From: Dehalococcoidia bacterium
GTDB taxonomy: Bacteria > Chloroflexota > Dehalococcoidia > Lucifugimonadales > UBA3495
Direction of reading: 5' to 3'
Length of the DNA: 37,691 bases
Assembly (NCBI GenBank): GCA_009692925.1
Contig: SHYG01000015.1
Location: forward strand, 1-37,691
Of the stretch, positions 5,532 to 35,117 are shown piece by piece. Position numbers and translations under genes: made by a program. Under the pieces are notes generated by a model. The model was given only the letters and a program-made list of their open reading frames with translations. It had not been told where the DNA came from and searched no databases. Each line of letters opens with the position of its first letter. Position 1 is the stretch's first letter.

Positions 5532-6965
5532 CTACGCGTCGCTGGAGCGGCTGCGGGGAGACCGGGCCGGCGCCGGCGCCGCGGCCTCGCTGTTCCGGCG
5601 CTGGTCCAGGTAGTTGGGCGCGGCGATGGGCTCCCAGTCCACCAGGGTGTTGTCCGCCAGCCGGGAGGCAATGCGCGGCTTGGCCTTTTCCAGCTCCTCA
5701 ATGCTAAATGGAGACGTGATGATGGTGGGCAGCCGCACCTCGTGGCGGTGCAGGATGATCTGGCCCAGTTTCTCCTCGGCCCAGGGGGTGCTCTTCTCCG
5801 CGCCCAGGTCGTCCAGGACGAGCAGAGGTGCGGTCTTCACCTGCTCAAACAGCTCGTCGTAGCCGATGGGGTTGTCAGGGCGGAAGGTGGCCCGCAGGTG
5901 GTCCAGCAGGTCCGGGACCCGGACGAAGAACACCGGAGTGCCCCGGCGCAGCTGTTCCACTGCCGCGGCCACTGCCAGGTGGGTCTTGCCGCACCCGTAG
6001 TCCCCGGTGAACAGCAGCCAGCCCTCCGGGTGGGCGGCGAAGGTCTGGGCGGCCTTCTTGACCCGCTCCAGGGACTCGCGGATGGCGCGGCCGGCCTTGG
6101 GCCCGCCCCGGAGGTTGAAGCTCTCGAAGGTCATGCGCTGCCGCATCTCCGCGGGCACCTCGCCGATGCGCCGCGCCAGCCGGTGCTGGACTGTGCCCAG
6201 ATGCACCACCCGGCAGAGGCCGTCGGTGGCTTCCAAGCGGGCGCGCAAGCCTTCCTCCAGCCGGTCCAGGGATCCCCGCACGGTGACCAACGTGGGCAGC
6301 GCCGCGTTGAACCGGTGGTTGAACACCTGGAACAGCTTCTCCTGCGCCCAGGGAGTGGCGCTGAGGCTGGTCAGGTCGTCCAGCACCAGCACCGGCGCGT
6401 TACGCACCTGGTCGAACAGCTCGTCGTAGGGCACCTCGCTGTCGGGGGCGTAGGCCGCCCGCAGGTGATCCAGCAGGTCGGCGGCCGCGATGAAGAAGGC
6501 GGTCTGCCCCCGCTCGATGCAGCGGTTGGCGATGGCCGCCGCCAGGTGGGTCTTGCCGGAACCGCTGGGGCCGGTGAGCACCAGCCAGCCCACGGGGTTT
6601 TCCGCGAACTCTCTAGCCGCCGTCAGGGCGTGGGCAAACAACCGCTGGCTGTCGGGGTCGGCCAGGGGGCCCTGGGGGTTGGTGTCCTCCAGGGTGATGC
6701 GCGCCAAAACCCCCAGGTTGCTGTATCGGCGCAGCGCGGCGGCGCGGGCAGCGGGGTCGTTGGCTGGATGACAACGGCAGGGAAAGGCTTGGCCGAAGTC
6801 GGGATGGTCCACCGGCACCCGCTTGCCGACCCAGCCCCTGCCGTGGCAGTAGACGCAGACCGGTCTTTCAGGCTCCCTGGTCGGCCGAGATGCCCCATCG
6901 CCGTTGGTAGTCTTTGAGGTGCTTCTGATAGTTATCTGGCGGAGAATGTCTCCCAAGCTCTCCAT
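5532..6965 (-). CDS. DnaC/DnaI-type helicase loader with two tandem AAA+ domains and N-terminal Zn-finger-like Cys motif
   Basis: Walker A twice (GPSGSGKTH, GDYGCGKTH), Walker B twice (VLVLDDL, LLVLDDL), CVYCHGRGWVG...FPCRCHP; ATG at 6965 (MESLGDILRQI). Confidence 0.9.
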   Translation of the reverse strand: MESLGDILRQITIRSTSKTTNGDGASRPTREPERPVCVYCHGRGWVGKRVPVDHPDFGQAFPCRCHPANDPAARAAALRRYSNLGVLARITLEDTNPQGPLADPDSQRLFAHALTAAREFAENPVGWLVLTGPSGSGKTHLAAAIANRCIERGQTAFFIAAADLLDHLRAAYAPDSEVPYDELFDQVRNAPVLVLDDLTSLSATPWAQEKLFQVFNHRFNAALPTLVTVRGSLDRLEEGLRARLEATDGLCRVVHLGTVQHRLARRIGEVPAEMRQRMTFESFNLRGGPKAGRAIRESLERVKKAAQTFAAHPEGWLLFTGDYGCGKTHLAVAAAVEQLRRGTPVFFVRVPDLLDHLRATFRPDNPIGYDELFEQVKTAPLLVLDDLGAEKSTPWAEEKLGQIILHRHEVRLPTIITSPFSIEELEKAKPRIASRLADNTLVDWEPIAAPNYLDQRRNSEAAAPAPARSPRSRSSDA

Positions 6966-9560: not shown

Positions 9561-9679
9561 AGCTACGACCTCTCTACTGGCTTGCAATTCCGGCCCGCCG
9601 GGGGTGTTTACCCACGCATTATAGCGGACTTCCGGGGCTCCTGAAAGGGTAGTGGGGACTTTCGATTATGGTCCGGACT

Positions 9680-9777
9680 GTAGGGGCGCACCTATGTGTG
9701 CGCCCCCGGGACAGACCTTCCACCCGTGGGCAGACACCCTTCGGCGCGGCTCAGGGCAGGCTCCGGTCTGCCTCTAC
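9680..9777. repeat. Composite GTAGGGGC-family element (two sub-hairpins)
   Basis: GTAGGGGCGCACctatGTGTGCGCCCCC ... GGGCAGACA ... GGTCTGCCTCTAC. Confidence 0.75.
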
Positions 9778-15748: not shown

Positions 15749-15767
15749 CACCGCACGCCGCAGTGGA

Positions 15768-15796
15768 GTAGGGGCGGGTTTGAAACCCGCCCCTAC
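15768..15796. repeat. Perfect 29-bp palindrome, GTAGGGGC family
   Basis: GTAGGGGCGGGTTT-G-AAACCCGCCCCTAC. Confidence 0.92.
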
Positions 15797-15871
15797 GATT
15801 TTGCGCGCATTTTGCGCGGTGCCTTACCCAGCTTGTAGGGGGTCAAGCTGTATGGTATCCTTTACCAACGT

Positions 15872-16154: not shown

Positions 16155-16213
16155 GAGACGAAAATCCCCCCAACCCCCCTTTGCGAAAGGGGGGTTGGGG
16201 GGATTTTCGTCTC
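16155..16213. repeat. Perfect 59-bp palindrome, AAATCCCCCC family
   Basis: GAGACGAAAATCCCCCCAACCCCCCTTT-GCG-AAAGGGGGGTTGGGGGGATTTTCGTCTC. Confidence 0.95.
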
Positions 16214-25646: not shown

Positions 25647-26196
25647 GTTTGAAGCCACCCAGATGATCTTGCGCCACATCGGCGACCGGCCCATCGTCGC
25701 CAACCTGGGGCCCACCACCGACGAGCTGTGGCACGCCGGGCACCGGGATCGCAACTTTTACACCTACGGCAACATGGGGCTGTGCTCGTCTCTCGCCCTG
25801 GGCATGGCCCTGTCCACCCCGGAGAAGGTGGTCTCCCTGGATGGCGACGGCTCCCTGCTGATGAACCTGGGGGCCATCGCCACCATTGGGCGGGAGCAGC
25901 CCAAGAACCTGGTGGTGGTGGTGTGGGACAACGAGCAATGGGGCCAGACGGGGCACCAGACCAGCCACACGGGCTGCGGGACTGATCTAGAGAAAGTGGC
26001 CCAGAGCTGCAGCATCAGCCACACCGCCACGGTGCGGGACCTGGAGACCCTGGAGTCGGTGTTCCAGCAGGCGCTGGAGGAAGACGGGCCCTGGTTCATC
26101 GTGGCCAAGATTGACGAGGCGGGGTACATGCCCGTGTCGCCCATTGAGCCGGAGATGACCCTGTACCGGTTCAGGAACTCGTTCCTCAAGCAGTAG
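25639..26196 (+). CDS. TPP-dependent decarboxylase beta subunit (ComE-like), TTG start
   Basis: VSLDGDGSLLMNLGAIATIGREQPKNLVVVVWDNEQWG (GDG-N TPP motif); 8-nt overlap with the alpha subunit. Confidence 0.87.
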   Translation: MLRFEATQMILRHIGDRPIVANLGPTTDELWHAGHRDRNFYTYGNMGLCSSLALGMALSTPEKVVSLDGDGSLLMNLGAIATIGREQPKNLVVVVWDNEQWGQTGHQTSHTGCGTDLEKVAQSCSISHTATVRDLETLESVFQQALEEDGPWFIVAKIDEAGYMPVSPIEPEMTLYRFRNSFLKQ

Positions 26197-26245
26197 GGGC
26201 GCACCTATGTGTGCGCCCTGGGCAGACACGCAGGTCTGCCCCTAC
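26193..26245. repeat. GTAGGGGC-family double-hairpin element overlapping the stop codon of the upstream CDS
   Basis: GTAGGGGCGCACctatGTGTGCGCCCtGGGCAGACacgcagGTCTGCCCCTAC. Confidence 0.9.
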
Positions 26246-26269
26246 GAGATACCAGTGCACCTTAAAACA

Positions 26270-26298
26270 GTAGGGGCGGGTTTGAAACCCGCCCCTAC
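26270..26298. repeat. Perfect 29-bp palindrome, GTAGGGGC family
   Basis: GTAGGGGCGGGTTT-G-AAACCCGCCCCTAC, identical to 15768..15796. Confidence 0.92.
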
Positions 26299-26328
26299 GT
26301 TGTTGCCAGGGTTGGTAAATCCAGGGGT

Positions 26329-29194: not shown

Positions 29195-30226
29195 TCATCC
29201 CCCCGACATAACCTCCCCCACCGCCCGTGTGACCAGGTTGGCCGTCAGGGGCACTTTGTAGCCGTTGTCCGCCATGGGCCGGGGGTTGGGCAGGGCCAGG
29301 CTCCCAGCATGGGCCGCATCAACATCAGCCACTTGCTGGCCTCGCAGGTACTCCTCCACCGGTCGCGCCCGGTAGGGCACTGGGGCCACACCGCCCAAGC
29401 ACACCCTGGCCTGACGGATGGTGTCCCCCTCCAATGCTACGGCGACCGCCACGCTCACCAGGGCAAAGTCCCCCGTCTCCCTCTCCCGCGCCTTCAGGTA
29501 CAGGCTGCGCACCGGGACGGAAATCCCCCCTACCCCCCTTTGCAAAGGGGGGCCAAGGGGGATTTCGTCTTGTCCCGGCAGCAGCACTCGCGTCACCAGC
29601 TCACCCGGCTCCAAACCGTTCTCCCGCAGCAGGTCCTGGCCGGGGCCAATGAAGAACTCGCCGATGGGCATGGTGCGCGTCCCCCTTGGTCCGGCAATCT
29701 CCACCCTGGCATCGAACACCGACAGCGCCACCGCCGTGTCCGAGGGGTGCACGATGTAGCAGCGGTCGCCGCCAGTGACGCACAGGTACTTGCTGACCCC
29801 CGCCAGGGCGTAGCAACGGTCGCCACCCTTCTTCAGGCACACGGTCTGGGGGTGGCGGTAGTACCAGCAGCGCGGCCGCTGGGCCAGGTTGCCCCCCAAA
29901 GTGCCCACGTTGCGGATCTGCGGCGTGGCCAACTCCTCCGCCGCCTGGGCCAGGGCGGTGTAGCAGGCGCGGATGGCCGGGTGTTGGGCCAGCTCGGCGA
30001 TGGTGGTCATGGCGCCCAGCTCCAGGCCGCCGCCGGTCTCGCGAATGCCGCGCAGCCCAGGGATGCCCGCCAGGCTCACCAGCCGCCGGGGCGCGGCCAC
30101 GCCCTCCTTGATCTCGCTGAGCAGATCGCTGCCCCCGGCGATGAGCTGCGTCTCGCCAGGCTGCGCCGCCAGCAGCGCCACCGCCTCGTCCAGGGACTTG
30201 GGCTCGATGTACTGAAAAGGCTGCAA
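29195..30226 (-). CDS. Molybdenum hydroxylase FAD-binding subunit (CoxM/XDH-M), possibly with a [4Fe-4S]-type Cys motif
   Basis: PKSLDEAVALLAAQPGETQLIAGGSDLLSEIKEG; ATPQIRNVGTLGGNLAQRPRCWYYRHPQTVCLKKGGDRCYALAGVSKYLC. Confidence 0.94.
   Translation of the reverse strand: MQPFQYIEPKSLDEAVALLAAQPGETQLIAGGSDLLSEIKEGVAAPRRLVSLAGIPGLRGIRETGGGLELGAMTTIAELAQHPAIRACYTALAQAAEELATPQIRNVGTLGGNLAQRPRCWYYRHPQTVCLKKGGDRCYALAGVSKYLCVTGGDRCYIVHPSDTAVALSVFDARVEIAGPRGTRTMPIGEFFIGPGQDLLRENGLEPGELVTRVLLPGQDEIPLGPPLQRGVGGISVPVRSLYLKARERETGDFALVSVAVAVALEGDTIRQARVCLGGVAPVPYRARPVEEYLRGQQVADVDAAHAGSLALPNPRPMADNGYKVPLTANLVTRAVGEVMSGG
29520..29566. repeat. AAATCCCCCC-family palindrome located inside a CDS
   Basis: GAAATCCCCCCTACCCCCCTTTGCAAAGGGGGGCCAAGGGGGATTTC; outer CCGGGAC/GTCCCGG arms at 29512-29518 and 29572-29578. 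Confidence 0.93.
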
Positions 30227-30340: not shown

Positions 30341-32594
30341 CCTCTAATACTCGCTGGGGAGTAATCGGCAGGCGGGTGAACCGCACGCCGATGGCGTCGT
30401 AGATGGCGTTGGCGATGGCTGGGGCCACCCCCACGGCGGGCACCTCGCCAAGAGCCTTGGCCCCCAGGGGCCCAATGGGGTCCACCACATCGGCAAAGAT
30501 TATCTGGATGTCAGGGTAGTCCAGGATGGTGGGGCACTTGTGCTCCAAATAGCTGCCGTTGAGGGTGATGCCGGTGGGCCCGTCGGTGACCAGCTCCTCG
30601 GACAGGGCAAAGCCCAGCATCTGGGAGATGCCTCCCTCTACCTGGTTCAGGGCCAAACGCGGGTTCAGGATGCGCCCCGAGTCGTGGGCCGCCACGTAGC
30701 GCAGCACCCTGACCTGGCCGGTGCCGGTGTCCACCTCCACCTGGGCGAAGTGGGCGCCGAAGGAGTTGATGATGTGGTTGGGACTGCCGGGGTTCACGGA
30801 AGCGCTGGCGGATAAGACGTCGCTAGCCGCCCGGCGCACCACCTCCGCCAGGGACATGCGCCGCGCCGGGTCGCCCTTGACGTAAACCGCGCCTCCCGAC
30901 AGCTCCAGGTTGTCCACCGGCGCCTCCAGCCCGTCGGCAGCCAGCTCCAGGAGCTGCCCCCGCAGCGAGGTGGCGGCCTGCACCACCGCGGTGCCGGTGG
31001 AGAAGGTGGCAGTGGAGCCTGCGGTGATGGGTGCGTTGGGCGTGGTCGCGGAGTCAGCAAAGATGAGGCGGATGTCCCGGCTGTCCAAACCTAGCCCCTG
31101 GGCAGCCATCTGGGCCAGCACCGTGGTGGCGCCCTCTCCCACGTCCATGAGGCCGCACACCAGGCTGATGACGCCCGACCGGTCTATGCGCACCTCGGCG
31201 GCAGAGGCGAACCCCGGCCCGCCGCGGTAGATCATCATGCTCATGCCCCGGCCTCGCTTCTTGGCCGGGTCGGCGGGCTGCTCCGCGGGCTCGCCCCAGC
31301 CGAAGGCTTGCGCGCCCAATCGCAGGCACTGGTCCAGGCCGTTGCTGGAGAAAGGCACTCCGCCTTCCAGAGGCTGGCTGTCAATATTCTGGCCCGGCGG
31401 TGTGGTGCGACGCCCCGGCTGGCCTTCCGCCCGCACCTGGTTCTTCAGGCGGAACTCCAGAGGGTCAATGCCAAGGGCCTCGGCGGCGCGGTCCATCAGG
31501 GTTTCCAGGGCGAAGTGCCCCTGGGGCGCGCCCAGGGCTCGATACGACCCGCCCGTGGGCCGGTTGGTGTAGACCAGATAGGCCTCATACTTGGAGTTGG
31601 CGCAGTGGTAGAGGTACAGCGACCCCTGGCCCAATCGCCGCGCCACGCCGGGGCCGGAGGCCAGGTAGGCCCCTTTGTTCAGGGTTGCGATGGTGTGGAT
31701 GGCGGTGATGCTGCCGTCCCGCTTGAACCCCGCCTTGATGCGGATGCGCGCAGCGTGGCGGGTGCGTCCGGCCACGAACTCGTCCTGCCGGGAGTACTCC
31801 AGGCGCACCGGCCTACCTGCCCGCTGGGCCAGCACCGCCGCCAGCGCTCCCAGACGCGACTCGTCCTTGTTGCCGAAGCCCGCACCCAGGTAGGGGCCCA
31901 CCACTCGCACCTTGGCCGGCGGGATGCCCAGGGCCTCCGCCAGCGTCGCCCGGTCCACGTGAACACCCCGGCTGGACTTCCACACGGTGAGGGAGTCGCC
32001 CTCCCAGGCGGCCAGCGCCGCCCGCGGCTCCAGGGCGGTGGCCGAGTGCACCGGGATGAAATACTCCTCCTCCAGCACCAGTTCCGCCTGGGCAAAACCC
32101 TCGGCCACGCTGCCCCGCTCCAGGGACAGGGGCTTGCCGCCGACCAGATTGCCTCCGGGGTTGCCTTCGGGGTGAATGACGATGGCGCCGGGCTTCAGAG
32201 CATCCTCAGGCTCCAGGACGAAGGGGAGCGCCTGGTACTCCACCTCCAGCAGGGACAGGGCCTGGCGGGCGATGTCCAAGTCGGCGGCGGCGACGGCGGC
32301 CACCTCGTCGCCCACGAAGCGCACCCTGCGATCCAGGATGGCCAAATCCGGCGCCACCTTGCCAGGCGGGACATCGAAGGGGGTGACGATGGCGTACACT
32401 CCGGGCAACCTAGCCGCCGCCTGAGTGTCAACGCTCAAGATGTTGGCGTGAGGATGAGGGCTGCGCAGCACCAGGGCGTGAAGCATCCCCGGCAGCTTCA
32501 AGTCGGCGGTGTACTTGGCCTGGCCGGTGAGCTTGTCCCGCAGGTCGGTGCGAATTACGCTCTGGCCGGTGGCGGCGGTAGTGGATGAGGTCAT
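30261..32594 (-). CDS. Molybdenum hydroxylase large (molybdopterin-binding) subunit
   Basis: LTGQAKYTADLKLPGMLHALVLRSPHPHANI; GAGFGNKDES; GGSYRALGAPQGHFALE; GPLGAKALGEVPAVGVAPAIANAIYDAIGVR. Confidence 0.95.
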   Translation of the reverse strand: MTSSTTAATGQSVIRTDLRDKLTGQAKYTADLKLPGMLHALVLRSPHPHANILSVDTQAAARLPGVYAIVTPFDVPPGKVAPDLAILDRRVRFVGDEVAAVAAADLDIARQALSLLEVEYQALPFVLEPEDALKPGAIVIHPEGNPGGNLVGGKPLSLERGSVAEGFAQAELVLEEEYFIPVHSATALEPRAALAAWEGDSLTVWKSSRGVHVDRATLAEALGIPPAKVRVVGPYLGAGFGNKDESRLGALAAVLAQRAGRPVRLEYSRQDEFVAGRTRHAARIRIKAGFKRDGSITAIHTIATLNKGAYLASGPGVARRLGQGSLYLYHCANSKYEAYLVYTNRPTGGSYRALGAPQGHFALETLMDRAAEALGIDPLEFRLKNQVRAEGQPGRRTTPPGQNIDSQPLEGGVPFSSNGLDQCLRLGAQAFGWGEPAEQPADPAKKRGRGMSMMIYRGGPGFASAAEVRIDRSGVISLVCGLMDVGEGATTVLAQMAAQGLGLDSRDIRLIFADSATTPNAPITAGSTATFSTGTAVVQAATSLRGQLLELAADGLEAPVDNLELSGGAVYVKGDPARRMSLAEVVRRAASDVLSASASVNPGSPNHIINSFGAHFAQVEVDTGTGQVRVLRYVAAHDSGRILNPRLALNQVEGGISQMLGFALSEELVTDGPTGITLNGSYLEHKCPTILDYPDIQIIFADVVDPIGPLGAKALGEVPAVGVAPAIANAIYDAIGVRFTRLPITPQRVLEALSLQRSAVSPPTTRSNRGGGLIADG

Positions 32595-33271: not shown

Positions 33272-33301
33272 GGGCGGCCTCCCGAAAGAGTTAAAACCAA
33301 C

Positions 33302-33330
33302 GTAGGGGCAGGTTTAAAACCTGCCCCTAC
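33302..33330. repeat. Perfect 29-bp palindrome, GTAGGGGC family, with compensatory changes
   Basis: GTAGGGGCAGGTTT-A-AAACCTGCCCCTAC. Confidence 0.92.
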
Positions 33331-33361
33331 AGTTACTCGGATACCAGGCGCCACGCGGGGC

Positions 33362-35056: not shown

Positions 35057-35101
35057 AAATCCCCCCAACCCCCCTTTGTGAAAGGGGGGTTGGGGGGATT
35101 T
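35057..35101. repeat. AAATCCCCCC-family perfect palindrome
   Basis: AAATCCCCCCAACCCCCCTTT-GTG-AAAGGGGGGTTGGGGGGATTT. Confidence 0.93.
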
Positions 35102-35117
35102 TAAGAAGCGCTGATGG

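Follow-up and report, generated by a model that had tools for sequence, protein, structure and literature searches.

The best-known palindromes that form part of protein-coding genes are those of Rickettsia and Wolbachia. The Rickettsia palindromic elements (RPEs) were reported by Ogata et al. (2000, Science 290:347, as cited in PMC10969869 and PMC3733652), and the Wolbachia palindromic elements (WPEs) are named in PMC3733652. GTAG- and CGTC-tagged REPs, including intragenic copies, were described by Di Nocera et al. (2013, PMC3733652) as short, mostly intergenic palindromes, some of which lie within DNA repair and tRNA synthetase genes; two Xanthomonas recB genes were hit at about the same site. 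The CGTC-tagged REPs, which lack a dedicated transposase, have an unpaired tag at one end, an 8-9 bp stem, a 4-5 nt loop and a CCA tail (PMC3733652). Bacterial MITEs with intragenic copies include the RU elements (PMC2759123; reviewed in PMC10969869).

A palindromic element was located within a gene for a CoxM/HcrB-like FAD-binding subunit (Table 1) in the window, which is the whole 37,691-nucleotide stretch of DNA analysed and corresponds to contig C73 of a 91% complete genome (G000; 2.07 Mb, 101 contigs). The minus-strand open reading frame is uninterrupted over 343 amino acids, and the Pfam domains FAD_binding_5 and CO_deh_flav_C, expected of this subunit class, flank the insert, in agreement with the preliminary description of an otherwise intact CoxM-like frame. 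The arms, the 47-bp core and their position as given there are base-exact in the window sequence, and the two similar copies elsewhere in the window (16162-16207 and 35057-35102; 83-98% alike by ungapped comparison) are intergenic, as had been claimed. Folded as single-stranded DNA, the in-gene copy reached -25.7 kcal/mol, whereas shuffled versions averaged -14.0 (z -4.7) and 0 of 200 of them were equally stable; the copy at 16.2 kb had a folding z of -11. A Cys-rich loop in the same protein (residues 120-156, with C120, C130, C138, C149 and C156) resembles the iron-sulfur loop of 4-hydroxybenzoyl-CoA reductase beta and fits an HcrB/aldehyde-oxidase-type subunit better than CoxM proper.

Table 1. 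Positions of the palindromes, host gene and related features in the window
Feature	Position	Strand	Remarks
CoxM/HcrB-like FAD-binding subunit gene, insertion host	29195..30226	-	PF00941 and PF03450
Palindromic element in FAD-subunit gene	29512..29578	-	outer arms CCGGGAC (29512-29518) and GTCCCGG (29572-29578)
47-bp core hairpin GAAATCCCCC...GGGGGATTTC	29520..29566	-	sequence match, folding
Codons of 21-aa repeat-derived loop GQDEIPLGPPLQRGVGGISVP, residues 218-238	29513..29575	-	homologue alignment and AF2 model
Empty site A, coxL-like gene (GWGEPAEQPADPAK)	31260..31301	-	in-frame palindrome there in L035
Empty site B, coxL-like gene (RRAASDVLSAS)	30804..30836	-	in-frame palindrome there in L035
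Intergenic full palindrome	16155..16213	.	28-bp arms, 100% complementary; centre of a ~140-bp MITE-like unit (about 16111 to about 16249)
Intergenic core palindrome	35057..35102	.	between coxS-like gene and next gene
GTAG-REP-like palindromes	15767-15804, 26269-26306, 33301-33338; 1496-1523, 9677-9704, 26190-26217		start GTAGGGGC, end GCCCCTAC or similar
Duplicated P-loop ATPase-like segments	5805-6041, 6372-6608		75-77% identical, 567 bp apart, within one 505-aa ORF

The nearest solved chains, 5y6q_B (aldehyde oxidase medium subunit) and 1rm6_B (4-hydroxybenzoyl-CoA reductase beta), are both gapped at the insert when aligned. The distance from GE to YLK is 38 residues in the window protein and 53 in that of L035 (see below), compared with 21-28 in the 16 homologues in which the loop was measurable by one rule. 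The net gain amounts to 16-17 amino acids against most homologues and to 10 against the nearest relatives, which have a longer loop to begin with; the repeat-derived peptide itself is slightly longer than had been noted. In an AlphaFold2 model built from only 10 sequences (mean pLDDT 75.5), residues 226-235 have a pLDDT below 50 and lie between strands 210-217 and 239-247, so that the insert is predicted to form a low-confidence loop between two strands. The view that a repeat-derived peptide occupies a loop is borne out by its absence from homologues, by the model, and by pairs of filled and empty sites in the same operon.

These pairs were found by comparison with L035, a SAR202 cluster MAG (VGZV01000018.1) that is syntenic with the window and has nucleotide identities to it of 77-85% in coxL and 75% in coxM. 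In its coxM a related palindromic insert, longer than that of the window, occupies about the same position, and its coxL contains two in-frame palindromes, NPPNPPLQRRARGNF and NPPNPPLAKGSQGGF (net +36 and +51 bp), both missing from the coxL of the window. Copies in L035 at coxL sites whose counterparts in the window are empty show directly that the element was gained or lost once the two lineages had separated. The stems of both coxL copies have decayed (z -1.2 and -2.8). The in-gene insertion was correctly noted in the preliminary description, but as a single case, whereas the phenomenon is genome-wide and another version is present at about the CoxM site in L035.

The consensus of the element is about 58 bp long (GGGACGGAAATCCCCCCnnnCCCCCCTTTGCAAAGGGGGGnnnGGGGGGATTTCCGTCCC). 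Its sequence GGGACGGAAATCCCCCCAACCCCCCTTTGCAAAGGGGGGTTGGGGGGATTTCCGTCCC is its own reverse complement and is free of stops in all six frames, a property found in 3.9% of base shuffles of the consensus and retained by 26 of 34 full-length cores; the element could therefore enter in either orientation and, with a net length divisible by three, be translated. All three reading frames are used by the in-gene copies, giving peptides of the KSPxAPLYERG, NPPxPPFAKGG and IPPxPPLQRGVGGIS types. Many intergenic copies are embedded centrally in a unit of ~140 bp whose inverted ends (TTACnGAGaCTTGCATAAATATCTAATGCGG... and ...TTAAGAGATTTATGCAAGGGTCTGTAA) match imperfectly; of this unit the in-gene copies represent the central part only. 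A second palindrome family with the core CCCCCCTTACGAAGGGGG was seen elsewhere in the genome (L005, L015, L087), and the window holds other palindromes resembling GTAG-tagged REPs (Table 1).

Searching the genome with the core pattern gave 124 forward matches and 0 in the reversed control. Based on a periodic codon model, 15 of 84 distinct sites, sampled by pattern and including a few of the second family, were called in frame within coding sequence at the final, looser threshold (14 after removal of one false element), the IleRS site falling just below it; none of the 84 had frame-conflicting or opposite-strand coding flanks. The false element, at L066:8789, was a chance match within a ketoacyl synthase and was dropped. 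Overall, genuine genes hold about 15 in-frame copies. Hosts confirmed by Pfam/NCBIfam are IleRS, RecG, MutS2, PurL, TrpF and TrmD, BirA, a GlcE-like oxidase and an SDR (two copies each), a GT4 glycosyltransferase and a DUF2298 membrane protein; a cytidylyltransferase-like protein is also a host. Translation is less sure for an N6-methylase ORF, with a copy near the end of the open frame, and for a UreF ORF (L076:3111-4082), with a copy near its start. The latter also carries, besides this N-terminal palindrome, an unrelated repeat insert, EAGIRRLGDSNVGETSSPNPPIPADG, inside the domain and a variant of it upstream. Bacterial genomes are mostly coding. With about one-sixth of the copies in genes, the element would therefore be strongly depleted there, as expected if selection removes most gene hits. 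Exact-pattern sites in two relatives (G005 and G011) likewise include intergenic copies; in G005 four contexts resemble gene junctions, three with flanks on the same strand in different frames and one with flanks on opposite strands.

The IleRS loop that lies between VFVKFRV and PTYLLAWTTTPWTLPGNT carries a palindrome in five genomes of four genera (G000, G008, G005, G006 and G020) and in none of the 27 other genomes aligned; two g7 genomes have one common version. On a tree made without the insert columns three changes were needed, at least two of them forced by well-supported branches, and a single clade of inserts was rejected (p-AU 0.012). As this was a quick tree and the group tested was named after the data had been seen, the evidence is moderate, and on these alignments the loop appears to have been invaded at least twice. 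The MutS2 palindrome corresponds to a 22-residue gap in the B. subtilis protein and is absent from that site in 24 of 24 relatives sampled. In the same loop the MutS2 proteins of L123 (G016) and L133 (G011) contain unrelated extra peptides. The trmD gene (L097:956-2266, G000:C45) reads through its palindrome, with no stop, into a YbgC/FadM-type acyl-CoA thioesterase. The latter lacks a start ATG at the point where its counterpart in a relative begins MPRSDFKFHT, and in several relatives the two genes are kept apart by a stop. The palindrome is thus predicted to join both genes into a fusion.

Exact-pattern copies were present in 22 of 99 genomes in a sample of relatives, all in the family of the window, and in 6 of 301 genomes drawn across the phylum, the five others being within the same class. 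The number of copies varies from 0 to about 40 among genera, as it does for mobile DNA. No match to the transposase family Y1_Tnp/RAYT (PF01797) was obtained in the 91% complete genome, the control genomes being matched, and no transposase is bracketed by two elements 1.25 kb apart on contig C91. Neither a clean target-site duplication nor a parent IS was established for the element, and blastn of the consensus against plasmids gave no match. A literature search by the letters of the repeat (AAATCCCCC, GGGGGATTT) returned unrelated primers and barcodes only; no published description of this repeat was found in the searchable literature, though one may exist elsewhere.

Very probably, this is a non-autonomous palindromic element that is retained in genes only where the frame and a surface loop tolerate it. 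Palindromes of ~58 bp are dispersed in this SAR202-type Chloroflexota genome and in part of its family, and would have moved by transposition-like copying, with the enzyme supplied from elsewhere. Most copies lie between genes, often centring a longer unit, and some, including that in the FAD-subunit gene, lie in genes and would be translated as a Pro/Gly/Lys-rich peptide. Selection would then keep only frame-preserving insertions in permissive surface loops, the peptide being most likely neutral and a specific function for it unlikely. It is quite unlikely that the in-gene palindromes were instead kept for function, either as mRNA hairpins that slow ribosomes or protect the mRNA or as useful linkers: the still stable stem of the window copy and the repeated filling of one IleRS loop would suit such a role, but the host proteins serve unrelated roles (tRNA synthetase, repair, purine, biotin, tryptophan, membrane protein), the coxL stems of L035 have decayed, and most relatives have no insert at the CoxM, MutS2 and IleRS sites.

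Ancestral insertion with vertical inheritance, the palindromes being homogenised by gene conversion and moving little in recent times, is rather improbable. The same-site palindromes in CoxM (window and L035) and in IleRS, where the g7 genomes have a common version, could partly reflect shared ancestry and not new insertion; against this stand the coxL sites, the rejection of a single IleRS clade and a MutS2 palindrome missing from all sampled relatives. Repeats are a common source of assembly misjoins, and the genome is a draft, yet in over a dozen genes frame and conserved domains run through the insert, and separately assembled genomes have the same insert type at the same loci, making an assembly or binning artefact extremely improbable. 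Beyond the preferred reading of a tolerated non-autonomous element, we tentatively propose that a six-frame-open palindrome might act as an evolutionary loop-builder, re-entering the same loops across genera, able to fuse genes (TrmD-thioesterase), and moved by an enzyme yet to be found, in a Chloroflexota family that is probably free-living.

With in-frame copies in about a dozen other genes, the lineage follows the pattern of selfish DNA entering proteins. Such a dense case in uncultured, probably free-living Chloroflexota, where relatives differ in empty and filled sites and one IleRS loop has been hit repeatedly, would provide a further natural experiment on selfish DNA becoming protein. 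In annotation, NPPNPPFAKGG or PPLQRGVGGIS peptides mark the repeat and not a conserved motif.

The analogy to the Rickettsia elements drawn at the outset applies to how the element behaves (in-frame copies, numerous unrelated host genes, loops) and does not extend to descent, since no RPE architecture was found. Like RPEs, the element is palindromic, dispersed and enzyme-less, is inserted in frame into the ORFs of many unrelated genes and has intergenic copies too; it differs in its Chloroflexota host, its perfect symmetry, its openness in six frames and its length, the in-gene unit being ~58 bp, whereas the first-reported RPEs are given as ~150 bp in PMC10969869. With WPEs it shares the protein-coding palindrome, in another host phylum. 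The intergenic copies recall MITEs in that they often lie within the longer unit, whose terminal inverted repeats are imperfect; in contrast, the in-gene copies are the central palindrome alone, and no parent insertion sequence was found. The ends GACG...CGTC are reminiscent of CGTC-tagged REPs, but here GACG and CGTC pair with each other, closing a hairpin stem longer than 20 bp, and there is no CCA tail. From GTAG-tagged REPs and their RAYTs it differs in having neither a GTAG tag nor a PF01797 match in its own genome. The element is neither an RPE, from which architecture and length set it apart, nor a tagged REP. Since intragenic REPs have been published from free-living bacteria, in tRNA synthetase, repair and recB genes (PMC3733652), the kind of insertion is already known; new here are the repeat family, the host group and the density.
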